Positions 33,560 through 63,054 of a DNA stretch of 64,000 nucleotides are shown here, one piece after another (the first letter of the stretch is position 1; every line of letters begins with the position of its first letter). The translations under genes were made by a program, and so were the position numbers. Under the pieces are notes generated by a model. That model was not told the origin of the DNA, did not search any database, and saw only the letters and a program-made list of their open reading frames with translations. Origin of the DNA: Mesorhizobium japonicum MAFF 303099 (GTDB lineage: Bacteria; Pseudomonadota; Alphaproteobacteria; Rhizobiales; Rhizobiaceae); the NCBI RefSeq assembly GCF_000009625.1, contig NC_002678.2, forward strand, positions 4,930,001 to 4,994,000, read 5' to 3'.

Positions 33560-33903
33560 ACTAGAGAGTTTGCTATGGGCTGCTCAAAGCAACCTGCACG
33601 ATCTCAGCGGATTGAGGTCCGGCGTGGTCGCTGCCTGCCGCTGCAATCGAACCAGCATCGTCATCGTAAATGTGTGCCTCGGATAATGCAGGGTTCCCGT
33701 CACGCCGGCCGCCCGGAACGCATCGGCAAAAACCGCCCGTTAATCGGGTCACGCTAACGGCGTTTCCTTGAGTGTTGAGGAACAGAGCCGAGGGCGGCGA
33801 TTTTGCCAACCTACAGGGGCGCTGCATAGACGACCGCACCTGACGTGCACCCGGTTACGCTGCGTATAACCAAATGGCGGATCATTCCCATGAGGGTAGT
33901 CCT
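33560..33903. other. Gap without recognised gene
   Basis: Short open frames exist on both strands but none carries a family signature. The end of the gap holds the leader of the omptin gene. Confidence 0.5.
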
Positions 33904-34872
33904 ATGAAATTGTACGCGAAAGTCTTTGGTGGAGCGGCAGCGTTGCTCGCTGCCTGGCCGGCGATGGCCAGCGACGCGGTGGCGAGCGAACCGGCGCCCT
34001 ACAATCCCAATTTCTCTTTCGTTGGCGGCGTCGGCGTCATCGACATCCAGGCCAACGAGCTGGTCTATCAGGCTCCCGGCAGCGGCTCGAAGCTGAGCCA
34101 CCTTATCTGGGAATCCACCTCTGCGGTCATTTCAGCCGAGATGACGGCGCGCAGCGAGGCCGGCTGGACCGCCAAGCTTTCCGGCCAGATCGCCTTCAGC
34201 GGCAACAGCTACATGGAAGACTATGACTGGAACCCGTCATTCTCGACCAATGATGGCTGGAACGACTGGAGCAACCGTTCGCGCCACTGCGACACCGATC
34301 TTGATTACTTCTATTCGGCAACCGTCGCGCTCGGCCACGATTTCCAGTTCAGCGACCAGCTGCTGATCAACGTCAACGGTGGTTTCAAGTACACCTCGGT
34401 CAAGTGGACTGCCTATGGCGGCTCCTATGTCTACAGCGTTGCCGGCTTCCGGGATTCGGTTGGCGACTTCCCAGGAGACGCAAAGGCCATCAGCTACCAG
34501 CAGAAATTGCCGGTCGCCTTCGCCGGCATCGATGCGACCTATGTCCAGGATCGCTGGAACTTCGGCTTTGCGCTGAAGGGCGGCACGACCTTCTCGGCCG
34601 GCGCTACCGATCATCACTGGATGCGTGACCTGCGCTTCGAGGATGATTTCGAATCGGCGCCGGTTCTGATGGTCGGCGGCAGCGTCGGCTACCAGTACAA
34701 CGAGCGGACCAGCTTCTTCGTCTCCGGTTCCTACGTAAAGGTGTTCACCGCTCGCGGCGACTACAACACCTATGACATTGCGACCGGCGCAGAGACTGGC
34801 GGCGAAGACGACTGGATCGGCGGCGATTTTGCCGCGGCGACAGTGATGGTCGGCATCAAGACCTCGTTCTGA
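33904..34872 (+). CDS. Omptin-family outer-membrane protease
   Basis: A 322-residue protein with a signal peptide (AAALLAAWPAMA, cleavage before SDA) and a ten-stranded omptin barrel. Catalytic residues of OmpT (Asp83, Asp85, Asp210, His212) have counterparts: Asp106 and Asp108 in MEDYDW, and Asp236 and His238 in ATDHHW. SRHCDTDLDY and GGSYVYS match other conserved blocks, and the protein ends in Phe (GIKTSF). The ATG at 33904 is preferred over 33874 since the signal peptide begins there. Omptins cut between basic residues, often host antimicrobial peptides; a role against plant peptides is possible but unproven. Confidence 0.92.
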   Translation: MKLYAKVFGGAAALLAAWPAMASDAVASEPAPYNPNFSFVGGVGVIDIQANELVYQAPGSGSKLSHLIWESTSAVISAEMTARSEAGWTAKLSGQIAFSGNSYMEDYDWNPSFSTNDGWNDWSNRSRHCDTDLDYFYSATVALGHDFQFSDQLLINVNGGFKYTSVKWTAYGGSYVYSVAGFRDSVGDFPGDAKAISYQQKLPVAFAGIDATYVQDRWNFGFALKGGTTFSAGATDHHWMRDLRFEDDFESAPVLMVGGSVGYQYNERTSFFVSGSYVKVFTARGDYNTYDIATGAETGGEDDWIGGDFAAATVMVGIKTSF

Positions 34873-35464: not shown

Positions 35465-36421
35465 TCAGGCTGCCCTGTAGCCGACGGGGGAAATGCGTTG
35501 GTGTTTCTTCTTGTAGATGCAGTAAGTGAGCAAATCATAGGTATTTGAGAAGCTGTGCAACCAGAATATGTGAGGTTCGCCGTTCGCATCATAAAAGATG
35601 CTTTCGCCTTCGCCTACCGGACCCCGCTTGCGGTTGGTTGCGTGATCGCAGATCGCGGAATAGGCAACTTCGGTGGTGATTCCGGGAAAGTGCTCAGCAA
35701 GCGCTTTCGATCTCGGGAAATAGGCCACGTTGTCATTCCCCGCCTTCTCGCAGATATCTCTGTGATAGGGATGCCGGCTGACAACGCCGAAGGCAGGAAA
35801 GTCCGGATCGCGTTCGCAAACCATTTGCCAAAGCGTTGTCGTAAGGGTGTTCCCGTAGCGCTTGCGAAGCTGCTCGATGCTCTTCCATTCAAATGAGCAG
35901 TCCAGCGCTTCGGGACGAAATCTTCCCCCGAGAAACAAGAGGTGGCGCCCGCCATAATTGGCTTCCGCCTCCATTGCCTGATGGAATGTCGGGTTCAGCG
36001 TGGACTCATTGTCGCCCAGAAGCAGGGAGCGATGCCAAGGCAGAAGATCATGTGTAATCTCATGTGCGATGAGGAAGCGTCGCTTCAGCTCGGCTACATC
36101 ATCATCGATGAAGATTCGCTTGTCGCCTTCCTTCAGCATCAGGATACCACGAAGGCCATATTGCTGGACTACATCGACCATGCGCTTGGCCGTGCTGGTG
36201 ATCTCGTTGCCAGCGATTCGCGCCCGGTGGGCGATCTCATCCAGTAGGCTCAGGTTCGCTTTGCTATAATAGGTAAGGTCAAGCTTTTGCAGCGCGCGTA
36301 CCTGCTCGAGCCGTAACGGGGGCTCTGGATTGCCGAGATCACGCAGCAGACGTGATATGTGCTCATGGATATCTCGGCGCTCAAAGTCCCCGATTATCGG
36401 CTCAATCGCGGACATGGTCAT
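35465..36421 (-). CDS. ImmA/IrrE-family metallopeptidase
   Basis: A 318-residue protein. The zinc protease site is HEITHDLLPWH (HExxH) with a downstream Glu in EAEANYGGRHLLF, the ImmA/IrrE pattern. ImmA-type peptidases cleave a partner XRE repressor; here the start overlaps the stop of an XRE gene by 4 bp, the classical pairing. It is the last gene of a four-gene minus-strand operon (RHH, GNAT, XRE, ImmA) facing away from the ubiquitin-like operon. The C-terminal 130 residues are not recognised; SFSNTYDLLTYCIYKKK shows it is well formed and not decayed. Confidence 0.85.
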   Translation of the reverse strand: MTMSAIEPIIGDFERRDIHEHISRLLRDLGNPEPPLRLEQVRALQKLDLTYYSKANLSLLDEIAHRARIAGNEITSTAKRMVDVVQQYGLRGILMLKEGDKRIFIDDDVAELKRRFLIAHEITHDLLPWHRSLLLGDNESTLNPTFHQAMEAEANYGGRHLLFLGGRFRPEALDCSFEWKSIEQLRKRYGNTLTTTLWQMVCERDPDFPAFGVVSRHPYHRDICEKAGNDNVAYFPRSKALAEHFPGITTEVAYSAICDHATNRKRGPVGEGESIFYDANGEPHIFWLHSFSNTYDLLTYCIYKKKHQRISPVGYRAA

Positions 36422-36945
36422 CCATTCTTCTTATCGATTGACGCCAGTACCTTGACGAAATCGTTGAGGTCGCGCCTTTCAGCCTGGCTTAGCTTCGACA
36501 GGTCGTCCGAACTCGCGGCAAAACGATGCGCCGCTTCGGTGAGATTGTCGTTCTGCGCAAACGACGCCGCGGTCAGCTGTTCCACAGCACGTGCTGAAAC
36601 CCCAATGAACTCGGCTAGCTGATGAACGGTACGCGGGCCTGGAACATAGCAGGGATCCTTCTCCACCTTCTCCAATTCCGCCGCATCAACACGAATTTTG
36701 GCAGCCAACTGCGCAATACTCAATCCGTCCTTGCGTCGAAGCTGATGCACCAATTTAAACAGCACAACAGTTTTGTGTTCAGAGGCAGCCGAAGGCTGCC
36801 CCGCAGTTGCTTGGTGACGAGACTTCTCCTGCATAAGACGCTCAAGCGGAGCTGCATCGCGCAGCGGGAGTCCCGCGTCGCAATCGACATCTGGATCATG
36901 TTCGATATGGCTGCGTAGCCAATCGGCAGTGAAATGTAATTTCAT
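36418..36945 (-). CDS. XRE-family regulator
   Basis: A 175-residue protein with a central XRE-like helix-turn-helix (LVHQLRRKDGLSIAQLAAKI, then VPGPRTVHQLAEFIGVSARA). The N-terminal 60 residues and a C-terminal tail of about 45 residues are not recognised. It overlaps the ImmA/IrrE gene by 4 bp and lies 15 bp downstream of the GNAT gene. By analogy with ImmR-ImmA pairs it is the probable target of the neighbouring peptidase. Confidence 0.8.
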   Translation of the reverse strand: MKLHFTADWLRSHIEHDPDVDCDAGLPLRDAAPLERLMQEKSRHQATAGQPSAASEHKTVVLFKLVHQLRRKDGLSIAQLAAKIRVDAAELEKVEKDPCYVPGPRTVHQLAEFIGVSARAVEQLTAASFAQNDNLTEAAHRFAASSDDLSKLSQAERRDLNDFVKVLASIDKKNG

Positions 36946-36960
36946 GGTCGACTCCTCTTG

Positions 36961-37608
36961 CTAGTGTTGCACGGATAGGAAAGTCGCAGCATCGCTGCTG
37001 GAAAGCTCGAAGTATCTCAGCCCTTTATGCACTCCTTCGCTATCCGCTCCAAGATCCGTCATTCCGATCGCATCCCGGTAGAAAACTTCTGCGCCAGGAA
37101 GGGAATGCAGACCGATCCGGCCACCAAACTCTTCTTCCAGGCTCAAGCTGACGGCCGTGCCAACGAGCGCACGCCCCGCACCCTTGTAAGTCGGCTCAGC
37201 AACCAGCTTTGGTCGATTCCATGGCGCCGTCGCCAGAAACTCCACGTAGATCAGCGGCACTCGCTGATGCTCGGGATGGCGACTGAAGCAGTCTTGGCCA
37301 CCTTTGCGTGTCATCATGATGGCCTGTGTGCTGCCACCACATTCGAGCACGAAGAAATCGAACAGGAACGGGTCGTTCAGCGCAGCCAGCGCCTTCTTGC
37401 CCCATTCCCAATGGGCGTCTTCGGCATTGACCTCCGCTAGAGTCTGAAGAGAGGCCTTGGCTTCCCTGCGACGCAGCTCAAAAAGCGGCCGCCAGCGTCC
37501 TTCGATATGCGCCAGATTCGTGCTGTCCAGGCCATGATACAGATCTGCATCTTCGAACCGGCCTGTTGCGCGATTTAAGAGAAAGACGCGATCGATCAGC
37601 TCTTTCAT
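36961..37608 (-). CDS. GNAT-like acetyltransferase
   Basis: A 215-residue protein whose C-terminal half has the GNAT features: strand IYVEFLATAPWNR, the acetyl-CoA loop YKGAGRALVGTAV and PGAEVFYRDAIGMTDLG near the end. The N-terminal ~90 residues, with RRREAKASLQTLAEV, are not recognised. The start overlaps the stop of the RHH gene by 4 bp, the arrangement of RHH-GNAT toxin-antitoxin pairs, although this protein is longer than typical toxins (about 160-180). Function not known. Confidence 0.65.
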   Translation of the reverse strand: MKELIDRVFLLNRATGRFEDADLYHGLDSTNLAHIEGRWRPLFELRRREAKASLQTLAEVNAEDAHWEWGKKALAALNDPFLFDFFVLECGGSTQAIMMTRKGGQDCFSRHPEHQRVPLIYVEFLATAPWNRPKLVAEPTYKGAGRALVGTAVSLSLEEEFGGRIGLHSLPGAEVFYRDAIGMTDLGADSEGVHKGLRYFELSSSDAATFLSVQH

Positions 37609-37811
37609 AGAACCATCAGCTCTACTTTTTCTGACTTATCCGCGCTTTCGACAAACACCTTTTCGCCACGCGCCAGTCGATCGTCGACTGATTTGTACAG
37701 CCGCAGCGCCTGGCGAACGAGCGCGGTTTTGGACAGTCCTTTTTCTTCACACATGGTTTCAAGGACGCTCATTTCCGCGTCCGACAAGTTAAGCGTCATC
37801 GTGCGCTTCAT
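37605..37811 (-). CDS. Ribbon-helix-helix regulator (antitoxin-like)
   Basis: A 68-residue protein of the CopG/RHH type: strand MTLNLSDAEM, then helices VLETMCEEKGLSKTALVRQALRL (shown only as landmarks). It is the first gene of the four-gene minus-strand operon, with GGAGGCGCC before ATG 37811. The gap to the divergent ubiquitin-like operon carries three TAGCTA motifs that could be its operators. It could be an antitoxin to the overlapping GNAT protein or simply an autoregulator. Confidence 0.8.
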   Translation of the reverse strand: MKRTMTLNLSDAEMSVLETMCEEKGLSKTALVRQALRLYKSVDDRLARGEKVFVESADKSEKVELMVL

Positions 37812-37839
37812 AGGCGCCTCCTAACCAGTGTTTTTTATG

Positions 37840-37900
37840 TAGCTATAAAGTCCACAATTGTCAATCAAAAAATGAGGATAAAATAGCTATTAACTAGCTA
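37840..37900. promoter_or_regulatory. TAGCTA triplet in the divergent promoter region
   Basis: TAGCTA, itself a palindrome, occurs at 37840-37845, 37884-37889 and 37895-37900, the last two as TAGCTATTAACTAGCTA. The 147-bp gap is AT-rich and must hold both promoters of the module, so these are likely binding sites for the RHH or XRE protein encoded alongside. Confidence 0.55.
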
Positions 37901-37958
37901 GACATTGGCTAAAAATTGCATATATGTCTTGTGCAGAATGAGAGACAAGGAGGCTTCG

Positions 37959-38615
37959 ATGCCTGACGTGACGAACTTTACATTCAAGCTGGACGGCCGC
38001 GTGGTGGCTACCAATGACGCCATCATTTCTGGTCGCGAGGTCCGCGCCCTCGGTGGGCTTGATCCGGCCAGCGACTATATTCTCATCCAGATAGCGGACA
38101 GGACATCGCGTTCGATCGGCCTTGAGGAAGCGATCGACTTCAGGGAGATGCCCCACTCTGAGTTCCTTTCATTCCAAGGCGACAGGGCCTTTTCTTTCAC
38201 CGTCAACGAGCGTGGCTGGGAGTGGGGATCGGCGACAATCTCCGCGGCCGACATCTATCGCTACGCGAGCATCGACGAGGATCTCGAGCTGATCCTGGAC
38301 AGCGCCGGCGATACGGTCATTCCCGCTGACGGCGCGGTGACTCTTGGCGGACAGGGCGTGGAGCGCATCCGCAGCCGCGAGGCGAAAACGGTGGTCATCA
38401 AGGTCAACGGTCGATCGCGCACGGTACCCAGGAGAAAGCACAGCTATCGCGAGATTGCACTGCTCGCCTACCCCGACGCCAACTTTGAGAAGTTCAAGTA
38501 CACGATCACCTACCTGAAAGGTGTCCACGGCGCGGAAGGTGATCTGGTGGAGGGCGAGAACATCGAAGTCAAGAACGGGATGGTCTTCAATGTCCGCCGA
38601 TCTGATAAGTCGTGA
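37959..38615 (+). CDS. Tandem ubiquitin-like (multiubiquitin domain) protein
   Basis: A 218-residue protein built from three beta-grasp repeats of the multiubiquitin type: residues about 3-62 (FTFKLDGRVV), 66-140 (FSFTVNERGWEWGSATISAA) and 143-216 (VVIKVNGRSRTV, then FKYTITYLKG and IEVKNGMVFNVRRSDKS). The last repeat has the typical L-x-x-G-x-x-x-x-V-K-x-G-M-x-F ending. The C-terminus is Arg-Ser-Asp-Lys-Ser and has no Gly-Gly. ATG 37959 is chosen since AAGGAGG lies 6 bp upstream; 37938 and 37905 are unlikely. The stop overlaps the start of the E1-like gene by 26 bp. Confidence 0.87.
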   Translation: MPDVTNFTFKLDGRVVATNDAIISGREVRALGGLDPASDYILIQIADRTSRSIGLEEAIDFREMPHSEFLSFQGDRAFSFTVNERGWEWGSATISAADIYRYASIDEDLELILDSAGDTVIPADGAVTLGGQGVERIRSREAKTVVIKVNGRSRTVPRRKHSYREIALLAYPDANFEKFKYTITYLKGVHGAEGDLVEGENIEVKNGMVFNVRRSDKS

Positions 38616-39780
38616 TCCGCATCTGAAGCGGCTGCTGGACGAGGGGTTCGAGCTCGAGATGCGCGAGCTCGTTCTTCTCCTCGTTCACAGCGTCCCCTAC
38701 GTGAAGCGCGACAAGTCGCTTGGCCGCGGCACGCTTGTCTGCACTCTGTCGCTGGATACCCAAGGCCTGACCGCATCTCCACAGACCGACCACACCATGT
38801 GGTTCACCGGAGAGACGCCTTGCCATCGCGATGGTGCGCCGATGACCAATATCATTCACAACAGCAACGAGGCGACTGTCGGGTCCGACATCAAGGTCCA
38901 CCACTATTTCTCGTCGAAGCCAGAAGGGACCGGCCAGTATGCCAACATTTACGACAAGGTTGTCACCTACGAATCGCACCTCGGCGCCGCCGCGCGGTCG
39001 CACGACAAGACCGCGAACGCGCGCACAGGCGTCACGCTAGCCAGCGCGCAGGACGATAGCCCCTTCGCGATCCCCGATTCTGCGTCAGCCCGCTACGGAA
39101 TCGTTGCCGCCAATCGCAAGCTCAGAGGCCGCGTCGCGATCATCGGCCTCGGCGGCACCGGTGCCTATCTGCTCGATCTCGCCGCCAAGACCCGCGTTGC
39201 CGAGATCCACCTCTACGACGACGACCAACTTCTCAACCACAATCTTTTCCGTTCGCCTGGTGCTCCCGAACCGGTGCTGGCGAAGAATTTTCCCCGCAAG
39301 GTCGATTATTACGCAGCGCTTTACGCGCGCATGCACAAGGGCGTGAAGCCGCACCCCACCAGGGTCAAGGCTGACAACATTGACGAATTTGCGGGATATG
39401 ACTTCGTCTTCGTCTGTGTTGACAAGGGATCGTCGCGGCGCGTGATTGCCGAAGGGTTGGTTCGCCTGGGCATTCCATTCGTCGACACTGGCATTGGTCT
39501 TGGACTCGAACACAACACGCTCGACGGTTGCGCACGGGCGACTTTCATTGCCCCCGGCACGCCGTGGGCGGAGGTGGCGACCCATCTGTCGTTCGGTGAC
39601 GACGATGAAGAGGCCGATGTGTACGGAACCGAGATCCAGACCGCCGAGCTCAATTCGTTGAACGCGATCATGGCGATCATGCGCTGGAAGCGCTGGCTGA
39701 CCTTCTATCGTGATGAGCGCAACGAAAGAAACGCGACATACATGATCGAGGGCAACAACATCACCAACCGGGGGGCATGA
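38590..39780 (+). CDS. ThiF/E1-like adenylyltransferase with N-terminal DUF6791-type domain
   Basis: A 396-residue protein. The C-terminal part from about residue 180 is a ThiF/MoeB/E1 fold: VAIIGLGGTGAYLLD is the ATP-binding loop, LYDDDQLLNHNLFRS the D-x(n)-N-x-x-R block that positions ATP, and DGCARATF (Cys314) sits where E1 enzymes keep the thioester Cys. The N-terminal ~170 residues (VHSVPYVKRDKSLGRGTLVC, FTGETPCHRDGAPM) match a domain found fused to bacterial E1s in multiubiquitin operons. No separate E2 or JAB protease gene is seen. The gene overlaps both neighbours, so the three products are surely made together. Confidence 0.85.
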   Translation: MSADLISRDPHLKRLLDEGFELEMRELVLLLVHSVPYVKRDKSLGRGTLVCTLSLDTQGLTASPQTDHTMWFTGETPCHRDGAPMTNIIHNSNEATVGSDIKVHHYFSSKPEGTGQYANIYDKVVTYESHLGAAARSHDKTANARTGVTLASAQDDSPFAIPDSASARYGIVAANRKLRGRVAIIGLGGTGAYLLDLAAKTRVAEIHLYDDDQLLNHNLFRSPGAPEPVLAKNFPRKVDYYAALYARMHKGVKPHPTRVKADNIDEFAGYDFVFVCVDKGSSRRVIAEGLVRLGIPFVDTGIGLGLEHNTLDGCARATFIAPGTPWAEVATHLSFGDDDEEADVYGTEIQTAELNSLNAIMAIMRWKRWLTFYRDERNERNATYMIEGNNITNRGA

Positions 39781-40181
39781 TGGCTCGGGTGGATTGTCTT
39801 ACAACGGTCTTTGTCGAAGACATTCCCGAACAGCTGGACGACGGGGTTCTTTACGTGTCGCGCCAATGCCACGTTGCCCTCCACAATTGCGCCTGTGGCT
39901 GTGGCGAGGAGGTTTCGACACCGCTCGTTCCAACCGAATATGACCTTGTCATGGAGGACGAGGGCGCTTCGATCTGGCCGTCGATCGGCAACCACGACTT
40001 CCCTTGTGGCTCACACTACATTGTCAAACGTGGCCGAATCCATTGGGCGGGCAAGATGTCTCGCGAGCAGATCGAAGCCGGCCGCGCCTACGACCGCCTT
40101 CTCAAACGCGGCGCCCAGCCAAAGGGGCTCAGGGCCATCCTCGCATGGATCAAGCGCCTGTGGATCAAGTTCATCGGCTAA
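39777..40181 (+). CDS. DUF6527 family protein of the ubiquitin-like operon
   Basis: A 134-residue protein overlapping the E1-like gene by ATGA. HNCACGCGEEV holds three closely spaced Cys, and DFPCGSHY a fourth, suggesting a metal site; LYVSRQCHVALHNC and SIWPSIGNHDFPCGSHY are the DUF6527 hallmarks, and the C-terminus is basic (WIKRLWIKFIG). Proteins of this family recur with multiubiquitin and E1 genes in bacteria; processing or removal of the ubiquitin-like protein has been proposed for this position, which is not shown by the sequence. The last 46 codons are repeated, diverged, at 47144-47288. Confidence 0.78.
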   Translation: MMARVDCLTTVFVEDIPEQLDDGVLYVSRQCHVALHNCACGCGEEVSTPLVPTEYDLVMEDEGASIWPSIGNHDFPCGSHYIVKRGRIHWAGKMSREQIEAGRAYDRLLKRGAQPKGLRAILAWIKRLWIKFIG

Positions 40182-40185
40182 TCAG

Positions 40186-40910
40186 CTGCGGCCGATGGCA
40201 TCGCCTTTGCAAGCATAGATCAGGTTGACGAAGCCTTCGGGAAAGCCGGCCTCCGCCGCGAGCGCAATCATTGCGCCTGCAACAACAAGCGGCGTCTGTT
40301 CGGCAGTTTGAGGATGACCGCGCAGCCCGCCGCCAGCACCGGCGGGATCCTGCGCGCGACCATCGAGGCAGCAACGCCGACCGGCTGCTTGACCACCAGC
40401 ATGCGCCGGTCCGACGAGGGCGGGGGAGATCGTCTCGCCATAGACACGATTGGCCTTCGGCGTACCAATGCAGATACGCGGGCCGCGTGAGGGACTTCGA
40501 ACTGGCTTCGCAAGCGGCTCGCCCATCTCCGCGTCAAGAATGGCAGCAAGGCCGACGGCATGGTCTATGATCAGCTGATGCCAGCGCCACAGCATGTCGC
40601 AGCACTCCCGGGCGGTCATGGCCGCCCATCCAGCCTGCGCCATATACGCTTGGTCGACCGCTGCGCGCCTCCTCGACCCCATGTCGGGAAATTTCCGCCA
40701 GCACGTCGCCAGTGGATGGATCAAGACCTCGAAAATTCGCTCGCCAGGCGGCGTGCCGAGTGGCGGCATGCGGTCGATAGCGCCGAACAGCTATGCAGAT
40801 TTCAGGTGCAAGCGGTTGGCACAGAGGCACGCCTGGCGGGGGCATCGGCCGTTGAGCCTGCGAGCTGATAAAACGGCAGCGCAAGGCGTGGCGTCCAGGC
40901 GGCCGCGGCA
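40186..40910 (-). pseudogene. Succinate-semialdehyde dehydrogenase remnant, copy A
   Basis: Minus-strand frames read AYMAQAGWAAMTARECCDML, WRWHQLIIDHAVGLAAILDA, EMGEPLAK and later AGFPEGFVNLIYACKGDAIG, corresponding to about residues 30-220 of GabD-type enzymes. Several frame changes are needed and the catalytic Glu and Cys regions are missing. It is the same fragment as at 47282-48050 with independent mutations. Confidence 0.8.
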
Positions 40911-40935
40911 AGCGGCAATCTGCCGGCACTTGATG

Positions 40936-41035
40936 GCGCCCGCGCGCCTGAAGGCGCGTGCCGGGCGCTCGTGAACCGAGCCCGCTTTTTCTTCGCGAGG
41001 CTCAGACGGCCTCGGCCATCCGGCTTCGCCGTCTC
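40936..41035. repeat. Island repeat copy R2
   Basis: Closely similar to R1 and R3 (GCGCGCCTGAAGGCGCG, GCTCGTGAACCGAGC then CCGCTTTTTC, CCATCCGGCTTCGCC) but truncated on the right by IS5-like sequence. It forms the end of duplication copy A. Confidence 0.85.
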
Positions 41036-46738: not shown

Positions 46739-47143
46739 TCAGGAGGCCTTGGGCTCCTCCAGCTTGCGCGGCATCTCCTTGCTCGGCCAGGTGCTCCCTG
46801 TTGAGATAGCGAATCGCCTCCAGCAGTTTTCGTGTGTTTCGACGGCGAGCGCGCGGACGAGCCGCAGGCAGTTCTCGGCGCTGGGAAAGATGCGCACCAC
46901 ATGGGTGCGCCGCTTGATCTCCTGATTGAGCCGCTCCAGGCTGTTGGCGCTCTTCAGGCTGTTGTGATGCTGGCGTGGCAGCCGGTTGAAGGTGAGCGTC
47001 TCCTCGACGTTGTCCTCCGCCCACTGGCACAGCTTGGGGCAGCGCGTCTCCCACTTGGCCAGCCATTGGGCGAGGTCGCGCCGCATTTCGGAAAGGTCGC
47101 GCCGGTCATACATCCAGCGCAGTTCCTGCAGGCAGTCATCATC
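46739..47143 (-). pseudogene. IS256-family transposase, C-terminal part
   Basis: About 135 residues of the C-terminal end of an IS256-type transposase: LAQWLAKWETRCPKLCQWAE, RLPRQHHNSLKSANSLERLN, QEIKRRTHVVRIFPSAENCL and LRLVRALAVETHENCWRR. It is cut on its N-terminal side exactly where duplication copy B begins. Nothing else is recognised between 46396 and 46738. Confidence 0.85.
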
Positions 47144-47281
47144 GATCCATTGGGCCGGCAAGATGTCTCGCGAGCAGATCGAAGCCGGCCGTGCCTATGA
47201 CGCCTTCTCAAGCGCGGCGCCCAGCCGAAAGGGCTCAAGGCCATCGTCGCATGGTTCAAGCGCCTGTGGATCAAGTTCATC

Positions 47282-48050
47282 GGTTGATCAGCGTGCGGCC
47301 GACGGCATCGCCTTTGCAAGCATGGATCAGGTTGACGACGCCTTCGGGAAAGCCGGCCGCGCACATTGCGCCTGCAACAAGCGGCGTCTGTTCGGCAGGT
47401 TTCAATATCACGGTGCAGCCGCCGCCAGCGCCGGTGAGATCTTGCGCGCCACCATTGAAGCCGGGAAATTCCATAGCGTGATCGTGCCAACAACGCCGGC
47501 TGGCTGCTTGATCACCAGCATTCCCGGTCGGTCGAGGGCGGGGAGATCGTCTCGCCATAGATGCGGTTGGCCTCTTTGGCATACCATTGCAGATATGCCG
47601 CCGCATGCGAGACCTCCGACTTGGCTTCGGCAAGCGGCTTGCCCATCTCAGCTGTGAGGATGGCAGCGAGGTCGGCGGCGTGGTCGATGATCAATTGATG
47701 CCAGCGCCAGAGCATGTCCCTGCGATCCCGGGCGGTCAACGCCGCCCATCCAGCCTGGGCCGTATAAGCCTCGTCGATCGCCGTGCTCGTCTCAGCGCCC
47801 ATGTCGGGTAGCTCTGCCAACACTTCGCCAGTGGATGGATCAAGCCCTCGAAAGTTCGCTCGCCAGGCGGCGTGCCGAGTGCCGGCATGCGTCCATAGAG
47901 ACGAACAGCTATGCAGATTTCAGGTGGAGCATCAGCGGTTGGCACAGAGGCACGCCCGGCGGGGGCACCGGGCGTTGAGCCCTGCGAGCTGATAAAACCG
48001 CAGCGCAAGGCATGGCATCCAGGCGTCCGCGACAAGCGGCAATCTGCCGG
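47282..48050 (-). pseudogene. Succinate-semialdehyde dehydrogenase remnant, copy B
   Basis: Minus-strand frames read [60 protein letters not shown] and, after frame changes, [17 protein letters not shown] and AAGFPEGVVNLIHACKGDAV. It is better preserved than copy A but also lacks the catalytic half. Confidence 0.83.
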
Positions 48051-48059
48051 CACTTGATG

Positions 48060-48178
48060 GCGCCCGCGCGCCTGACGGCGCGTGCCGGGTGCTCGTGAAC
48101 CGAGCCCGCTTTTTCTTCGCCAGGCTCAGGCGGTCTCGGCCATCCGGCTTCGCCCCCTGGCGCGGGCAGCCTTCGGCT
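48060..48178. repeat. Island repeat copy R3
   Basis: Nearly identical to R1 over about 115 bp, including GCTCGTGAACCGAGC followed by CCGCTTTTTC and the end CCCTGGCGCGGGCAGCC. It closes duplication copy B and lies 250 bp ahead of ardC. Confidence 0.88.
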
Positions 48179-55014: not shown

Positions 55015-55620
55015 TTGACCCAAATCGATCATGAACTGCTGAATCGAGAAATGGCCGCAGACGATCCATGGCGGCTCGATGGCAACCCGTTCGAGCGGGA
55101 GCGCCACACCCAAATTCTCCGGTTGTCACTTGCGCAAGGTCGAGTCGCGAATGCGCTCGAAGTCGGGTGCGCTGCCGGCGCTTTTACGGAGCGGCTAGCC
55201 CCCATTTGCCAGCGGCTCACTGTGATCGATGTCGTGGAGCCAGCGATTACCCGAGCACGTTTACGCATGAAGGAGACGCCGCACATCAGCTGGATAATTT
55301 CCGATGTTCAACAGTTTTCGAGTGATGAGCTGTTCGACCTGATCGTCGTTGCGGAGGTTCTTTACTACGTCGGAGACCTCGTTCAGATCCGCGCGGCAGT
55401 CCGCAACCTGGTAGGTCTGCTTGCGCCAGGCGGGCAGCTGGTTTTCGGGTCGGCACGTGACGCCAATTGCCAACGCTGGGGGCACGCTGCTGGTGCAGAG
55501 ACCACCATCGCCATGCTGAACGAATCGTTGACCGAGATCGAGTGCATCGAGTGCCGGGGCGCGTCGATCAATGAAGACTGCCTGCTGGCTCTCTTCCGAA
55601 AGCCGATTTCCGCTGCCTGA
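55015..55620 (+). CDS. nodS: Nod factor N-methyltransferase NodS
   Basis: A 201-residue S-adenosylmethionine-dependent methyltransferase that methylates the amino group of the terminal glucosamine before NodA acylates it. ADDPWRLDGNPFERERHTQI is a NodS hallmark; NALEVGCAAGAFTERLAPIC is SAM motif I, LFDLIVVAEVLYYVGD the later motif. The start is TTG 55015; no ATG fits before residue 13, and the TTG gives the usual length. The gene is alone behind its own nod box. Confidence 0.92.
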   Translation: MTQIDHELLNREMAADDPWRLDGNPFERERHTQILRLSLAQGRVANALEVGCAAGAFTERLAPICQRLTVIDVVEPAITRARLRMKETPHISWIISDVQQFSSDELFDLIVVAEVLYYVGDLVQIRAAVRNLVGLLAPGGQLVFGSARDANCQRWGHAAGAETTIAMLNESLTEIECIECRGASINEDCLLALFRKPISAA

Positions 55621-56731
55621 TAAAACACTGGGAGACACTGTGCGCTTCTGCGGTGTCAAGCTGACCCAATATGCGGACGTATAAGAGCGCCCGATGCAAC
55701 AAGTAGCTGGATCCGGTTGATGGTAACAACCGCTGACTACATCCGGCTTCTTCATGCGGCTCGATGTTCAGCGCCGCGAGCCTCGAGGGGTTTTCGCCCG
55801 CTTCCACCTCAACGGCCCCAGACGTCGGCCGAAGCCTTTCCGGTCCAGACATCAGGTTCGGAAGCGGCGGGGTGACCGTTCCCCACCTCTGCCATTTTGC
55901 GTAACGGCTTTACCCAATAAATGACCCATAGATGCCCACATGAAGCGAAGTCCTTATTTTGCATGGCTCCCTATGCGGGACGGGCTCTACGGCTGCCGCC
56001 ACCGAACCTCAAAGGTGTTTCGGCCCAGGTAGGTGACGATCCCTAGCCGGGAAAGCGGCACTCCTCGTCGGGGGCCGTCGGTCCCGTGTCCCGCCTTATG
56101 CGGCGCTATGCTGACACTCCTACGGCTGCCCTTTTAACCGATCTCGTCGTTGCAGTCAGTCCCGCGTCCCGGCCCTTCGGCCGGCGCAAGTGCTGACGCT
56201 CCTTAGGCTGCCTTTCTGTGTGCGGCGATTTTTGATCCCTCGCACGGAATGAAGACTTAGGGGCCAGCTCCTTCGCGCACTTCAGGCCTCAGGTGCTCAA
56301 GCTGTGTGTTCCAGTCGGCCAAAACCTCAAACAATTCGTTCGAAGTAGCGCCATCCGGGCGCGCCCTCCTTCCCGCTCTCCAGGTGCTTTCACCGACAGT
56401 CCGGTTGACCGGCAACACTCGAAAGCATTGACCAGACGATTCCTGTTGGCGAGCGCGATAGAGCTTCGCGGAACCTGTTTGCCGCCGGCGATCCAGAGCT
56501 GCGCGATCGCCATGCATCATCGCGTGCGCCAACGGTCGCCGCGTTTGCTGACGCCTAACAGTCGGGCCGTCCTCCACTTGATCGCTGCTTCGGCACGGGC
56601 GCAGCCACGCGCTGGCGGCCGCTCTTGAATCAGGTTGTGTCACCGACAGCTGCCATCGGTGCCGCCGCTTATCGGGCCAATCGAGCACGACCAGAAGGTT
56701 CAGATCAGGCTTTGAAAGGCATGGTTTTAAC
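55621..56731. other. Gap between nodS and nodA with tandem repeat
   Basis: About 1.1 kb without a recognised gene. Open frames around 56257-56763 on the minus strand have no family signature. The only clear structure is a pair of related 60-bp units, listed separately. Confidence 0.55.
56077..56217. repeat. Diverged tandem pair of ~60-bp units
   Basis: Unit 1 (56077-56135) and unit 2 (56155-56217) share GTCnGTCCCGnGTCCCG, a GC-rich centre with GGCGC, and TGCTGACnCTCC followed by GGCTGCC and T-rich ends. Unit 2 has a GGCC-TTC-GGCC hairpin. The units are about 75 percent alike by eye. Confidence 0.65.
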
Positions 56732-56779
56732 ATCCATAGCGTGGATGCTCGCGATCTAAACAATCAATTTTACCAATCC
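56732..56779 (+). promoter_or_regulatory. nod box of the nodA operon
   Basis: ATCCATAGCGTGGATG, then ATCTAAACAATCAATTTTAC and CAATCC: an almost perfect 48-bp nod box, ending 90 bp before nodA. Confidence 0.95.
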
Positions 56780-56869
56780 GGGAGGGCCGTTCATAGACCC
56801 ATGACATGCACCGCCATTGCTCTATCGCGTGGGGTGCACAAAAGAACCCGAAAAAGAGGAAGTCTTCGC

Positions 56870-57463
56870 ATGCGCCCTGACGTGCAGTGGAGGTTATGCT
56901 GGGAAAATGAGTTGCAGCTTCCCGATCACCTCGAACTCTCTGAGTTCTTCCGGAAGACCTATGAGCCGACCGGAGCCTTTAATGGGAAGCAATTCGCAGG
57001 CGGTCGAAGTTGGGCCGGTGCAAGGCCGGAGCTCCGCGTAATCGGCCGTGATGTGCACGGGGTAGCGGCTCACTTGGGCCTGCTGCGCCGATACATCAAA
57101 GTTGGCGACGATGATCTGCTTGTCGCTGAACTCGGTCTATACGGGGTGCGTCCGGATCTTGAGGGGCTGGGAATCGCCCATTCGATCAGCGTGATGTATC
57201 CGGTGCTGCAGCAGCTTGGCGTTCCATTCGCGTTCGGCTCGGTGCGGCCCGCGCTCCGGAACCATGTTTCGAGGTTCTGCCGCAAAGGCTTGGCGAACAT
57301 TTTGTCGGGCGTTCGCGTGCGTTCAACCCACCCGGACGTGTACCTCGATCTGCCTCCCACGCGAGTCGACGACAACGTACTCGTCCTGGTGCTCCCAATT
57401 GGACGCTCAATGAGCGAGTGGCCGGCCGGCACTTTGATCGATCGGAACGGTCCAGAGCTATGA
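56870..57463 (+). CDS. nodA: Nod factor N-acyltransferase NodA
   Basis: A 197-residue acyltransferase that attaches the fatty acid to the de-N-acetylated end of the chitin oligomer. [20 protein letters not shown] is the classic NodA start, followed by [20 protein letters not shown] and [23 protein letters not shown] 56870 has AAAAAGAGGA about 7 bp upstream; the frame is open further up but that part crosses the nod box. It is followed by nodC with 127 bp between and no nodB, as in M. loti. Confidence 0.97.
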
Positions 57464-57590
57464 AGGACGCCCGCTACGACGTCAGTCAGCGCGACCCGCC
57501 CCCATGGCGTTGATCGAGCTGATTCCAGCATTGGCCGCGGTTTTACTATCCGCCCGCTTCCCTCAAATTCACTGAAAAATCTGACATCTC

Positions 57591-58865
57591 ATGAACCTAT
57601 TTGCCTCAGCCAGTACTGTTGCCATCTGCTCTTACGCGCTGCTGTCGACCGTCTATAAAACCGCGCAGGTCTTTTATACCCTGCCTACAAACGTACCGCC
57701 GACCTCGGGCGACCCGCCCAGCGGTGAGCCTTGGCCGAGCGTCGATGTCATTATCCCGTGCTACAACGAGGCGCCTCGCACCCTCTCGGACTGCCTGGCT
57801 TCCATTGCAAGTCAGGACTACGCCGGCAAACTGCAGGTCTATGTTGTTGATGACGGTTCTGCAAACCGCGATGCCCTCGTGGGTGTACACGAGGAATACG
57901 CGGGCGACCCGAGGTTCAACTTCGTTGCGCTCCCAAAGAATGTCGGAAAGCGCAAGGCGCAGATTGCCGCCATTCGCCGCTCGTGCGGAGATTTGGTGCT
58001 GAATGTAGATTCGGACACGATACTCGCCCCGGACGTCATCACCAGGCTTGCGCTAAAGATGCAAGATCAAGCGGTCGGCGCCGCCATGGGCCAGTTGGCG
58101 GCTAGCAATCGCAGTGAAACTTGGCTGACGCGGTTGATCGACATGGAATACTGGCTCGCCTGCAACGAAGAGCGCGCAGCGCAGGCTCGGTTCGGTGCCG
58201 TCATGTGTTGCTGCGGTCCGTGTGCCATGTACCGGCGATCCGCGCTTGTTTCGCTGCTGGATCAGTACGAGACGCAGCGCTTTCGAGGGAAGCCGAGCGA
58301 CTTCGGCGAGGACCGCCACCTTACGATCCTGATGCTGAAAGCAGGCTTTCGAACAGAGTATGTCCCGGAGGCCGTCGCGGCAACAGTCGTTCCCAACAGC
58401 ATGGGTCCCTATCTGCGCCAACAGCTTCGCTGGGCCCGGAGCACTTTCCGTGACACGTTGCTGGCGTTCCAACTGCTGCGCGGCCTTAATATTTATCTCA
58501 CATTGGACGTGATTGGCCAGAATATTGGCCCATTATTGCTCTCTTTGTCGATTCTGGCGGGGCTCGCGCAATTCGTAACGACAGGTACTGTGCCTTGGAC
58601 GGCATGCCTGATGATTGCAGCCATGACTATAGTTCGCTGCAGCGTGGCAGCGTTTCGTGCGCGCCAACTTCGATTTCTCGGGTTCTCGCTCCACACACTC
58701 ATCAACATCTTTCTCTTGCTACCTTTGAAAGCATACGCGCTGTGTACATTAAGCAACAGCGATTGGTTGTCGCGAAGCTCTGCGGCCAATGTGCAAGACA
58801 CCGGCGACGCCCTTCCAAAGCCAAACCTGGTGGGATCTGACGCCGCTTACAGCGAACAGCAATAG
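57591..58865 (+). CDS. nodC: Chitin oligosaccharide synthase NodC
   Basis: A 424-residue processive GT2 glycosyltransferase in the inner membrane that makes the N-acetylglucosamine backbone. N-terminal membrane helix (residues 5-25), [37 protein letters not shown] and QQLRWARS (QxxRW) are all present, followed by C-terminal helices from about 295 to 390. Length agrees with other NodC proteins. Confidence 0.97.
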
Positions 58866-58890
58866 TTACTTGATCGCAGGTAGAAGAGTT

Positions 58891-59937
58891 TTGAGCCAGG
58901 ACCAGAAACATCAAGTGTTGAAGCGTAAGTTGGGCCCAGAGGATTTGCGGCGGCTCGAGACTCCTGCGATCGAACGGGAGTCTCACGGGCAAACAAGCGC
59001 GAAAAGCTCCGTGCCTGACTCTGCGTCAACCGTGGCAGTCGATTTTGCCGGCGTAACCAAGTCGTATGGGAACAAGATCGTTGTCGACGAACTGTCGTTC
59101 TCCGTTGCGTCGGGAGAGTGTTTCGGCCTCCTCGGACCAAACGGGGCGGGCAAAAGCACGATTGCGCGTATGCTCCTCGGCATGACATGCCCTGACGCGG
59201 GCACGATCACGGTGCTTGGCGTCCCGGTGCCGGCGCGCGCTCGGCTGGCACGCAGGGGCATTGGCGTGGTCCCGCAATTCGACAATCTTGACCAGGAATT
59301 CACCGTACGCGAGAACCTGCTGGTGTTCGGACGCTACTTCGGCATGAGCACACGTCAGAGCGAAGCGGTCATCCCGTCGCTTCTCGAGTTCGCTCGCCTC
59401 GAGCGCAAGGCGGATGCGCGCGTCTCGGAACTGTCCGGCGGCATGAAGCGATGCCTGACAATGGCGCGGGCGTTGATCAACGACCCCCAGCTCATTGTGA
59501 TGGACGAGCCGACCACCGGCCTCGATCCGCACGCGCGCCACCTGATCTGGGAGCGGCTGCGCGCCCTGTTGGCACGCGGCAAGACGATTATCCTGACGAC
59601 GCATTTCATGGAAGAGGCTGAGCGATTATGCGATCGGCTGTGCGTGCTCGAAAAGGGCCGCAACATCGCCGAAGGCGGCCCGCAGGCGCTGATCGACGAG
59701 CATATCGGATGCCAGGTCATGGAGATTTATGGCGGCGATCCGCACGAGTTGCTTTCGCTGGTCAAGCCACATTCCCAGCGCATCGAGGTCAGCGGCGAAA
59801 CCCTTTATTGCTATGCGCCAGACCCTGACCAGGTGCGCACGCAACTGCAGGGGCGAGCAGGTCTGCGTCTTCTTCTGCGTCCAGCCAATCTCGAGGATGT
59901 TTTCTTGCGGCTGACCGGGCGCGAGATGGAGGAGTGA
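58891..59937 (+). CDS. nodI: Nod factor export ATP-binding protein NodI
   Basis: A 348-residue ABC ATPase. [13 protein letters not shown] is Walker [19 protein letters not shown] the signature, [13 protein letters not shown]alker B. The N-terminal ~50 residues ([20 protein letters not shown]) are the extension seen in mesorhizobial NodI. The start TTG 58891 has AGGTAGAAGAG just upstream and lies 25 bp after nodC. Works with NodJ to export the lipochitooligosaccharide. Confidence 0.95.
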
Positions 59938-59940
59938 GCG

Positions 59941-60729
59941 ATGATTGAAGGTTTTGCGGCGGCGCTGCCGGCCAATGCGTGGAACTGGGTTGCGGTATGG
60001 CGACGCAACTATCTGGCATGGAAGAAAGTCGCACTCGTGTCGCTTCTCGGTAACCTCGCCGATCCTATGATCTACCTTTTCGGCCTAGGCACCGGCCTCG
60101 GCATAATGGTCGGCCGCGTCGACGGTGCGTCGTATATCGCCTTTTTGGCGGCCGGCATGGTCGCGGTAAGTGCGATGACCGCCTCTACCCTGGAAACATT
60201 GTACGCGGCTTTCGCTCGCATGCATTCTCAACGCACATGGGAAGCCATGCTGTATACGCACGTTACCCTCGGCGACATCGTTCTGGGTGAACTGGCGTGG
60301 GCAGCCACCAAGGCCTTCATGGCCGGTACGGCTATTACCATCGTCACCGCAACCTTGGGCTATGCCGCCTGGCCGTCCGTCCTCTATGCGCTGCCAATCA
60401 TTGCTCTGACAGGGTGCGTATTTGCGAGCCTCGCGATGATCGTCACCGCACTTTCGCCCAGCTACGATTACTTCGTGTTTTACCAGACGCTTGTCCTCAC
60501 ACCTATGCTGTTCCTGTCGGGCGCCGTTTTCCCATTGAACCAGCTGCCTGGCGCCTTTCAGCAGATAGCGCGATGCATGCCGCTGTCACATGCGATCGAC
60601 CTCATTCGTCCGGTTATGCTTGATCGCCCGATCAGCGGCATCGCCCTGCACGTCGGTGTGCTCGGCCTGTACGCGCTGTTGCCATTCTTCCTCTCGATGG
60701 CGCTGTTGCGCCGCCGACTAATGCGCTGA
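59941..60729 (+). CDS. nodJ: Nod factor export permease NodJ
   Basis: A 262-residue ABC-2 type permease with six membrane segments. [47 protein letters not shown] and [11 protein letters not shown] are NodJ features. It begins 3 bp after nodI (GAGTGAGCG before ATG 59941), so the two are translated together. Confidence 0.96.
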
Positions 60730-60750
60730 CGAAAGAGAGTGAGATAAACA

Positions 60751-60915
60751 ATGCGCTACGGACTTCGTGCTGCAAATAAAAACGACATCGCCAACGCAAA
60801 TCGGCATCCAACCCAGGGTCTTCGTGGCATCCACTCAATCTCTCAACGTTATGGAACGCCCGGGACCTCGATCACAGGATCTCATGTTGATCCAGGCGTA
60901 AGAGAATTTCTTTGA
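60751..60915 (+). CDS. Short open frame between nodJ and nolO
   Basis: A 54-codon frame with GAGAGTGAG upstream of ATG 60751. No family is recognised. It sits in the nod operon leader of nolO (303-bp gap) and may be non-coding. Confidence 0.25.
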   Translation: MRYGLRAANKNDIANANRHPTQGLRGIHSISQRYGTPGTSITGSHVDPGVREFL

Positions 60916-61032
60916 GGTTGGTGATGTCTGACTGGCGTTCGCGGCGGCGAACGACAACGCAGCCTGTGTTTTTGATCAAACGGCCTTGAGACAGGCCAAT
61001 TCAGTCTTCCTGTACGATAAACGGAGAGCGAG

Positions 61033-63054
61033 ATGCTGTGTCTAGGATTGAGCGGCGGATTAGACAAAGTCTATGAAAACCGATTCCAGATTGCGAATAC
61101 ATTCATGCACGATGGCGCTGCGGTGCTCGTCCGAGACGGACAGGTCATCGCGGCCGTAGAAGAGGAGCGCCTCAATCGGATCAAGCACTCCAACAAGCTC
61201 CCAATCAGTTCGGTTCAATACTGTCTTTCAGCCGCTGGGGTTCAGCTCGGCGAAATCGATCATGTGGCGTACTACGCTACCGAAGCCTATTGCAACGCCA
61301 TGCTCGAAAACATGCTTGCTTCCGAGCCCGACGCCTCCATTCCGTTGGATGCCAAATTTTTGGTGCAGCAGCTGTTGGCGCAGGAGTTCGGTAGCGAGCT
61401 CGACCCTTCGCGTATCTCATTCGTAAGTCATCATCAGGCGCACGCCGTGAGTGCTTTTGCAATGTCGGGCTTCGAGCAAAGTCTGATTTTCGCGATTGAT
61501 GGCTCTGGTGATTTCCAGTCGGGTCTTGTGGCGGTAGGATCTGGTGCTGAAATTTCGCAACTCGCGACTTTCCCAGAGAACAATTCCCTTGGGCTATTTT
61601 ATCTCGAGGTGATCCGGTATCTTGGCTACGGCTTGTTCGATGAATATAAGGTAATGGGGCTTGCCCCCTACGGCGATCCCGCTCCCTATCGCGAGCTTTT
61701 CGAGCAGTTCTATGAACTGTCTGCAAACGGCGAGTATCGCGTCCACCTGGACCGCATCGGTCCGACTTTGCTTCGCACCATTCAGGTCCGGCAAAAGGGA
61801 ATGCCATTCACTCAGCAGCACAAAGATGTGAGTGCGTCGCTACAGGAAGCACTCGAACGCATCGTGTTTCACATTCTTCGGCATCATCGTGAGGCCACGG
61901 GGATGACGCGGCTGTGCCTGGCCGGTGGCGTTGCGCACAATTGCTCCATGAACGGCAAGCTGCTCTATTCAGGCCTTTTCGAAGACATCTTCGTGCAGCC
62001 CGCGTCGCATGACGCTGGCTGCGCATTGGGCGCTGCATTAATCGTGTCTGGTGAGTTGGGCCGCCCCGCGCCGCGTGCGCGATTGCAGGAGGTTTATTGG
62101 GGGCCGGATCTCGCGAGCGATCATGCTGTGGAAGAGGAACTAAAGGCATGGGCGGGGCACCTGGAGTTTGAACGCACTGAGGAGGTGGCGGATAGGGCAG
62201 CCGAGTGGATGGCCGGTGGCGCCGTGATCGGCTGGGTGCAAGGTCGTTCGGAGTTCGGGCCGCGCGCGCTCGGAAATCGCAGCATTCTTGCCGACCCCAG
62301 GCCCGCCACAAACAAGGACCGGATCAACGCCATGGTCAAGAAGCGGGAAGGGTATCGCCCGTTCGCCCCATCAGTGCTGGAGGAGGATGCGCGCGAATTT
62401 TTCGACCTCCCAGGCAGTGCGTGCGAATTTCCCTTCATGAATTTCGTGGTCCGTGTGCGCGACTCCAAGCGTGGTTTGCTCGGCGCCATCACGCACGTCG
62501 ACGGTACGGCTCGGCTGCAAACAGTATCGCGCAAGGCCAGTCCGGCCTACTGGGACGTCATCAATGCCTTCAAGCAGCGCACTGGCATCCCAATTCTGCT
62601 CAACACGTCCTTTAACAACAATGCCGAGCCGATCGTGGATTCAGTTGCAGACTCGATTGCCACGTTCCTGACGACAGGGTTGGATGGACTTGTGGTCGGG
62701 CCGTTCCTCGTCAAAAAACGGGCCGCAACGCTGGAGGATTGGACTGCGCTAGCGGTTTCATTGCCGCCTTATGTATCCCTGTATAAGGTCCGCGCTCACA
62801 CGGCGCTGGATCGCCAGGAGACCATCTGCGAAATCCGAACGGATCACTCCAGCCGTGACGGTGTGCGTATTTCACCTGAATTGTTCGATCTGCTGACGCG
62901 AATCGAGGGCGAAGCCGTGCTCGCGGATCTCCTCGATACAATTACGCTGGATCAGGCCCAGCGCGAGGCTCTCACAGGAGAACTGCGACGGTTGTGGGAG
63001 CAGCGCCGCGTTCGGATGCGTCCCTCGCAAGCTGCTCGCGTCCATCAAAACTGA
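61033..63054 (+). CDS. nolO: Nod factor O-carbamoyltransferase NolO
   Basis: A 673-residue carbamoyltransferase of the NodU/NolO/TobZ group. The N-terminal Kae1-like domain shows LCLGLSGGLDKVYENRFQIA, FVSHHQAHAVSAFAMSGF and LCLAGGVAHNCSMNGKL; the C-terminal carbamoyl domain has WVQGRSEFGPRALGNRSILA and KKREGYRPFAPSVL. At this length it fits NolO (about 680) rather than NodU (about 560), and nolO follows nodJ in M. loti. NolO adds a carbamoyl group to the non-reducing end of the Nod factor. ATG 61033 follows GGAGAGCG. Confidence 0.93.
   Translation: MLCLGLSGGLDKVYENRFQIANTFMHDGAAVLVRDGQVIAAVEEERLNRIKHSNKLPISSVQYCLSAAGVQLGEIDHVAYYATEAYCNAMLENMLASEPDASIPLDAKFLVQQLLAQEFGSELDPSRISFVSHHQAHAVSAFAMSGFEQSLIFAIDGSGDFQSGLVAVGSGAEISQLATFPENNSLGLFYLEVIRYLGYGLFDEYKVMGLAPYGDPAPYRELFEQFYELSANGEYRVHLDRIGPTLLRTIQVRQKGMPFTQQHKDVSASLQEALERIVFHILRHHREATGMTRLCLAGGVAHNCSMNGKLLYSGLFEDIFVQPASHDAGCALGAALIVSGELGRPAPRARLQEVYWGPDLASDHAVEEELKAWAGHLEFERTEEVADRAAEWMAGGAVIGWVQGRSEFGPRALGNRSILADPRPATNKDRINAMVKKREGYRPFAPSVLEEDAREFFDLPGSACEFPFMNFVVRVRDSKRGLLGAITHVDGTARLQTVSRKASPAYWDVINAFKQRTGIPILLNTSFNNNAEPIVDSVADSIATFLTTGLDGLVVGPFLVKKRAATLEDWTALAVSLPPYVSLYKVRAHTALDRQETICEIRTDHSSRDGVRISPELFDLLTRIEGEAVLADLLDTITLDQAQREALTGELRRLWEQRRVRMRPSQAARVHQN

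Follow-up and report, generated by a model that had tools for sequence, protein, structure and literature searches.

A four-gene RHH-GNAT-XRE-ImmA cassette changes partners among ubiquitin-type and CBASS operons and stands opposite a ubiquitin-like operon in Mesorhizobium japonicum

Do two compact operons that point away from each other across a short gap belong together, and might one of them control the other? We addressed this question for a 64,000-nucleotide stretch of Mesorhizobium japonicum MAFF 303099 (NC_002678.2, positions 4,930,001 to 4,994,000; hereafter the window). The right-hand operon encodes a tandem ubiquitin-like protein (Ubl, here a polyUbl), an E1-like enzyme with a DUF6791 part, and a DUF6527 protein; the left-hand operon encodes a ribbon-helix-helix (RHH) regulator, a GNAT protein, an XRE regulator and an ImmA/IrrE-type peptidase. 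A sequence-only reading had presented these seven genes as one module. The seven open reading frames (ORFs), their strands and the 147-bp gap are all present in the ORF list of the window, and the domain calls hold by Pfam, with the GNAT identified by fold and the RHH also by a CopG match; Pfam likewise finds three Multi_ubiq stretches in the Ubl, which had been described as having three repeats. Overlap of neighbouring genes, another feature of that description, applies to XRE/ImmA, RHH/GNAT and E1/DUF6527 (4 nt each) and to Ubl/E1 (26 nt), but not to GNAT and XRE, which lie 15 nt apart. Comparison with other genomes divides the module into two parts: Ubl, DUF6791-E1 and DUF6527 are one conserved unit, and the four genes RHH-GNAT-XRE-ImmA form a cassette that is met with differing partners and has the appearance of a controller of bacterial immunity that can be exchanged.

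A tblastn search with the GNAT protein returned 51 plasmid records, 19 of which had a single match spanning 80% or more of the GNAT. Two duplicates were dropped (H7, of the same species and with the same identity values as H6, and H12, of the same strain as H11), leaving 17 loci. The 32 records below this cover were left out, apart from one with a shorter match (H22) that was opened with the 17, giving 18 plasmid regions. The gene order RHH-GNAT-XRE-ImmA is found at 15 of the 17 loci by annotation, with profiles used for H2 and H4, and H1 has RHH, GNAT and XRE together with a weak ImmA match (3e-7). At 13 of the 17 the cassette shares its divergent gap with an operon of ubiquitin type (10) or with a cyclic oligonucleotide-based antiphage signalling system (CBASS; 3). 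A polyUbl operon lies across the gap at nine loci (H4, H5, H9, H10, H11, H13, H14, H15 and H17), with a small annotated ORF intervening at H11. The same position holds a Bil-like operon at H3, and CBASS at H6, H8 and H16, assigned by annotation for H6 and H16. Elsewhere, Cas9 is encoded downstream of the cassette (H2), a restriction-modification (R-M) endonuclease gene lies about 1 kb from it (H1), or a polyUbl-E2-E1 operon follows beyond its ImmA end with a transposase upstream (H19). PADLOC supports the cyclase, HORMA, TRIP13 and effector genes at L138, BilC (1.4e-12) and BilD (3.3e-9) at L131, and Cas9 at L130; it gave no support for the endonuclease at L129, and Pfam finds Multi_ubiq and JAB at L135.

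The GNAT is rare in genome samples, occurring in 2 of 297 genomes of the order, 2 of 385 of the class and 3 of 398 of the phylum, with the source genome included and at most 7 candidates scored per genome for class and phylum. Genome G918 holds a complete copy of all seven genes, and G085 places the cassette opposite a polyUbl/JAB-E1/DUF6527 operon that bears an XRE-ImmA pair of its own. In G964 the GNAT-ImmA pair is a distant one and is accompanied by a Beta_protein gene. Such distant pairs with Beta_protein genes are recorded at L151 (PF14350, 6.5e-44) and at L147, the latter on an IMG/VR contig with phage packaging-like ORFs. The two operons of the window were also found together at L004, L005, L021, L022 and L150, the earlier reading having proposed a check of their co-occurrence across genomes; because the pairing recurs at these loci, we rejected chance neighbourhood.

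The E1 comparison used the best 80 relatives from a larger family, each taken with as much as 8 kb of flanking sequence per side, plus the window, making 81 sources. Family presence was scored anywhere in the fetched stretch with profiles grown from the window proteins, and the resulting counts are lower bounds. Ubl and DUF6527 are each present in at least 80 of the 81 sources, ImmA in at least 49, XRE in at least 41, and RHH and GNAT in at least 5 each. The seven genes as a conserved set were therefore rejected, since RHH and GNAT accompany only 5 of the 81 E1 sources, and the Ubl operon usually does without them. Among the record titles of the E1 relatives are Alpha- and Gammaproteobacteria, Bacteroidota, Nostoc, Streptomyces, Acidobacteria, Chloroflexi and archaea. 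Of 72,556 plasmid records 112 hold the E1, as do 0 of 50,697 phage records, and Multi_ubiq is found in 22 of the 297 genomes sampled from the order. At eight loci (L029, L033, L047, L048, L057, L061, L067 and L082) a protein of about 213 amino acids is encoded between ImmA and Ubl; the L029 copy has no Pfam match. In L019, a plasmid of Rhizobium sp. 32-5/1, the E1 reading frame is split into three pieces.

In the DNA upstream of the RHH gene start, copies of the palindrome TAGCTA are set 11 bp apart, and of the five copies in the 64-kb window three fall inside the 147-bp gap. We examined 21 cassette regions, being 24 less the near-duplicates L004, L005 and L140. In these, exact TAGCTA copies number 40, where 1.44 would be expected and none of 500 shuffles gave more than 6. 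With one mismatch allowed per site, pairs spaced 11 bp number 30, where 0.15 would be expected and the shuffles gave no more than 2. A pair is present in 19 of the 21 regions, the distances between sites peak at 11, 22 and 33 bp (30, 15 and 9 cases), and 12 of the 21 have a TTGAC that is preceded, at 46 or 47 bp, by a site. The regions are mutually related, so the shuffles overstate their independence; the operator argument is carried by the change of partner and by loci lacking RHH. The array is also present in regions adjoining CBASS, Cas9 and R-M genes, while in the 33,750 bases from 75 polyUbl loci without RHH there is no pair, and the hexamer occurs singly 5 times. The regions without a pair are L131 and L146; in L131 the motif reads TGGCC(C/A) with copies 22 bp apart, and the N-terminus of the RHH differs, both as judged by eye. 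Taken as sequence evidence, the array supports the earlier proposal that RHH controls the module, and the cassette appears to carry its own candidate operator.

The same four genes might instead be an addiction module, in which RHH-GNAT and XRE-ImmA are toxin-antitoxin pairs that stabilise the Ubl operon and the mobile element carrying it and have no role in control. Stabilisation by the XRE-DUF955 pair beside polyUbl cassettes is proposed in the excerpted text of PMC4963859, mobile-element remnants occur in the region of the module, and in 9 of the 81 E1 sources neighbour clustering shows the divergent position occupied by a RES protein and its small partner (the RES identity is Pfam-confirmed for L012 only, and the partner was read by eye as an Xre/DUF2384-type antitoxin). 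The GNAT itself lends some weight to this account. The window protein has no Pfam match, as is the case for all but 1 of 22 family members, which matches weakly; its model (pLDDT 91, pTM 0.88) matches 134 PDB entries at E<=0.001, and among the 50 listed the majority are described as acetyltransferases or GNAT toxins, including AtaT, AtaT2 and GmvT. Residues G143, G145, H168 and Y177 are invariant in an alignment of 22 relatives. However, only one short gap separates the cassette from the operon, with the array between both gene starts, an arrangement that fits control of both, and the divergent partners are mostly defence operons (the 13 of 17 above). We therefore regard a purely stabilising role as unlikely, though a serious contender.

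A second possibility accepts the array but assigns it to a protein other than RHH, such as XRE or a host factor, leaving RHH as the antitoxin of GNAT only. The hexamer by itself is not diagnostic of one protein, because according to the excerpt of PMC12255303 type I R-M operons are repressed by the unrelated RptR, a helical protein of 79 residues that binds TAGCTA in 9-bp repeats; in addition, XRE is always present with RHH in the scored cassettes. The likeness to RptR lies in TAGCTA palindromes set as direct repeats in a defence promoter, whereas the window has an RHH protein and 11-bp spacing. Against another binder stand the 75 RHH-less polyUbl loci, many of which have ImmA or XRE and none of which has a pair, and L131, where hexamer and RHH N-terminus differ together. 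We think binding by RHH the better explanation and consider a different occupant of the array quite improbable.

What, then, would the cassette be guarding? The overlap of the Ubl and E1 genes could be measured in 79 sources and is exactly 26 nt in 78 of them and 23 nt in the other (L081); L019, with its broken E1 frame, and L063, with no Ubl at a contig edge, were not part of the tally. The C-terminal residue of Ubl is serine in all 79. Codon by codon, 63 distinct overlap sequences were compared, with L081 also left out: the last Ubl residue is serine in 63 of 63, and the third base of its codon is free and varies. Residue 8 of E1 changes with that base, being Arg in 38, Leu in 15, His in 9 and Pro in 1. 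Residue 9 is Ser in 35, Asn in 20 and Asp in 8, each of which keeps a stop codon (TAG, TAA or TGA) in the Ubl frame. Column entropy averages 0.76 bits within the overlap against 1.18 and 1.13 in the 60 nt to each side. Since serine is fixed while E1 residues 8 and 9 vary with the codon, the Ubl tail is the part held by selection, with the E1 residues following. Plasmid operons with a longer E1 (JAB confirmed for L132) overlap, by annotation, by 4 nt in six cases (H5, H9, H10, H14, H15 and H17) and by 11 nt in H13, so the 26-nt overlap is a mark of the DUF6791 class.

The operon had been said to lack a separate E2 or JAB gene, and neighbour clustering across the 81 sources bears this out: no E2 or JAB cluster is among the recurrent neighbours of E1. 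In the archaeal locus L056, a second E1, apparently with an N-terminal JAB part as read by eye, lies about 2 kb from an operon of DUF6791 type. The E1 model is nearest in fold to BubCD and ThiF, with the matches confined to residues 147-396. Cys314, put forward earlier as the candidate catalytic residue, did not survive alignment: it is Cys in only 15 of 79 relatives (L019 and L056 not counted) and was rejected as a conserved E1 cysteine, so that the feature of a thioester-forming E1 is not found at that position. Cys276 is present in 65 of the 79 and Cys78, within DUF6791, in 75. To the eye, the order of strands and helices in the model of the DUF6791 part looks like that of an E2/RWD-type fold; profile comparison with Prok-E2_E gave no similarity, with one Prok-E2_E sequence only to compare, and a search of the genome for Prok-E2_E gave no match, as did its controls. 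DUF6527 has H36, C38, C42, S79 and H80 in 80 of 80 aligned rows and C77 in 79; a PDB sequence search gave no meaningful match, and no paper on this family was found in the open-licence literature. That the right arm is a Ubl-based sulfur-carrier or peptide-modifying pathway without conjugation is very unlikely, given that the top Foldseek and profile matches of E1 are BubCD, that the Ubl is a polyUbl whose nearest solved relatives are multi-ubiquitin domain proteins, and that no thiamine, cofactor or peptide-biosynthesis gene recurs near E1 in the neighbour clustering.

Table 1. Features of the module in window coordinates
Feature	Positions	Strand	Basis or remark
ImmA/IrrE-type metallopeptidase, CapP-like	35465..36421	-	Peptidase_M78 1.3e-6; PADLOC capP 1.2e-12
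XRE-type regulator, weakly CapH-like	36418..36945	-	HTH_31 8.2e-8; PADLOC capH 8.4e-5
GNAT-fold protein	36961..37608	-	Fold search of model; alignment; no Pfam match of its own
RHH (CopG-type) regulator	37605..37811	-	RHH_1 1.1e-4; CopG structure match 3.3e-5
Divergent control region, 147 bp	37812..37958		Between RHH and Ubl starts
TAGCTA palindrome, candidate RHH site	37840..37845		44 bp (4 x 11) from the next
TTGACA, candidate -35 of RHH promoter	37859..37864	-	47 bp from outermost array site
Candidate RHH operator array	37884..37911		TAGCTA at 37884-37889 and 37895-37900, one-mismatch copy at 37906-37911; 11 bp apart
PolyUbl, three Multi_ubiq stretches, C-terminal Ser	37959..38615	+	Pfam 7.7e-29; nearest solved relative 9cd2, 1.5e-22
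Ubl/E1 gene overlap, 26 nt	38590..38615	+	Same DNA encodes Ubl tail and E1 N-terminus
E1-like, DUF6791 (residues 11-163) and ThiF (179-310)	38590..39780	+	Pfam 4.6e-42 and 2.8e-14; NF004804 651.6 bits
DUF6527, Cys-rich	39777..40181	+	Pfam 1.2e-20

The module probably lies in a symbiosis island, because ORFs read by eye as nodS-, nodC-, nodI-, nodJ- and nodU-like are found at 55015-63054. An omptin-family protein (PF01278, 1.6e-44) is encoded just to its left at 33874-34872. On the other side, a stretch at 40038-41030, made up of the last part of the DUF6527 gene and about 0.85 kb beyond its 3' end, is repeated about 7.1 kb away at 47145-48154 in pieces 80-96% identical, and a frame at 46986-47657 that matches the DUF6527 profile is the remnant of a second copy. 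A Prok-JAB gene about 45 kb to the right of the module (L152, contig 5015032-5015325) lies beside ORFs read as a second, different Ubl operon.

Several parts of this arrangement are already in print. Among the polyUbl operons of class 6e, the excerpt of Iyer et al. 2006 (PMC1779556) includes those whose E1 carries a domain X instead of JAB, and it gives mlr6139 from Mesorhizobium loti as type member of a family whose proteins have three ubiquitin-like domains in tandem; no other open-licence paper was found with this locus tag, and the Ubl of the window is very probably mlr6139. Class 6e as described there has two to three Ubl repeats, a non-JAB domain on E1 and a metal-binding protein, and lists M. 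loti; the window has a tandem Ubl with three stretches, DUF6791 and ThiF without a JAB match, and DUF6527 as the metal-binding protein, and we equate DUF6791 with domain X. The excerpt also lists an inactive E2-like domain, which is not seen in the window operon, and it makes no mention of RHH or GNAT; the order of C38, C42, C77 and H80 in DUF6527 differs from its printed C-x3-C-x(35-38)-H-x2-C. According to the excerpt of PMC4963859 (2016), XRE+DUF955 adjoins 70% of PF14452 proteins. The multiubiquitin cassette of Synechocystis pSYSX, described in the same excerpt, resembles the window in having a multiubiquitin, an E1 and a metal-binding protein beside an XRE+DUF955 pair (slr6057-slr6056), but has an E2 gene and is given there without mention of RHH-GNAT. 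The combination had been called new; with class 6e and the XRE+ImmA linkage both published, that claim fails for five of the seven genes. No description of RHH-GNAT-XRE-ImmA as a unit, of the 11-bp array, of the partner change or of the 26-nt overlap was found in the open-licence literature.

Three further systems offer comparison. The Bub operons (BubA, BubB and BubCD of Citrobacter) encode in BubCD a near match to the fold of the E1, and many have regulators of CapH+CapP type; CapW or CapH+CapP adjoins 219 of 544 of them in the excerpt of PMC13373217. However, entry titles give BubCD a JAB-type part and BubB as its working partner, whereas the window E1 has DUF6791, and at this locus relatives of the Ubl and E1 were found and BubB and BubD were not. 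CapH+CapP pairs, like the window, set an XRE and an ImmA gene beside a defence operon, but in the window RHH and GNAT come before the pair, all four genes forming a cassette that has an operator array. In the CapH+CapP system, ssDNA activates CapP to cleave CapH. As in AtaR/AtaT and GmvT pairs, a small RHH gene overlaps a GNAT-fold gene; here the GNAT lies outside the Pfam models and XRE-ImmA follows.

On balance we favour the reading that the right arm is a class-6e Ubl operon, a candidate phage defence, held under an RHH/GNAT lock and a CapH/CapP-like XRE/ImmA switch. In this model E1 would adenylate the Ubl with its terminal serine. DUF6791 occupies the place of the JAB domain in other E1 proteins of class 6e, and no Prok-E2_E gene adjoins; as Cys314 is not conserved, transfer of Ubl may avoid an E1 thioester by an ester route or pass via the near-invariant Cys78 of DUF6791. 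DUF6527 would be a metal-binding partner that recognises targets or releases them. RHH dimers would occupy the TAGCTA array and shut both promoters, and RHH would restrain a toxic GNAT as in AtaR/AtaT-type pairs. XRE and ImmA would form the second switch, with ImmA cleaving XRE upon DNA damage, like CapP acting on CapH; infection would lift repression and raise the Ubl operon, and the whole would protect against phage. Several observations weigh against this reading. E1 sources with RHH and GNAT are few, as noted above. One plasmid locus (H18) has GNAT with no other cassette gene and nothing recognisable around it, H22 from Nostoc has a shorter GNAT with no ImmA and no ubiquitin genes, and in G581 a decayed cassette adjoins an efflux pump. 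A consensus scan found no promoters in the 147-bp gap, the PADLOC capH match of the XRE is weak (Table 1), and according to the excerpt of PMC13373217 protection against phage is yet to be demonstrated for Bub operons.

The wider proposal, for and against which we find the case about evenly balanced, is that the cassette and its 11-bp TAGCTA array form a distinct, unnamed class of defence controller, recombined as a block before polyUbl, Bil-like and CBASS operons. It would place a double lock, a toxin-antitoxin-type pair and a protease-cleaved repressor, on one promoter, and at this locus would guard an operon whose serine-ended Ubl is tied by overlap to its E1 and whose transfer chemistry may be unusual, given that no cysteine is conserved in the E1 where one would be expected. 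The 26-nt overlap indicates that in bacteria and archaea alike the E1 has been inherited jointly with the tail of its Ubl, and it directs attention to the C-terminal serine. That the same block stands before CBASS, an established antiviral system, and before polyUbl operons is an independent, sequence-based argument for polyUbl in immunity, and with the same operator, the same four genes and interchangeable partners, the question of whether polyUbl belongs to immunity becomes testable with one reporter.

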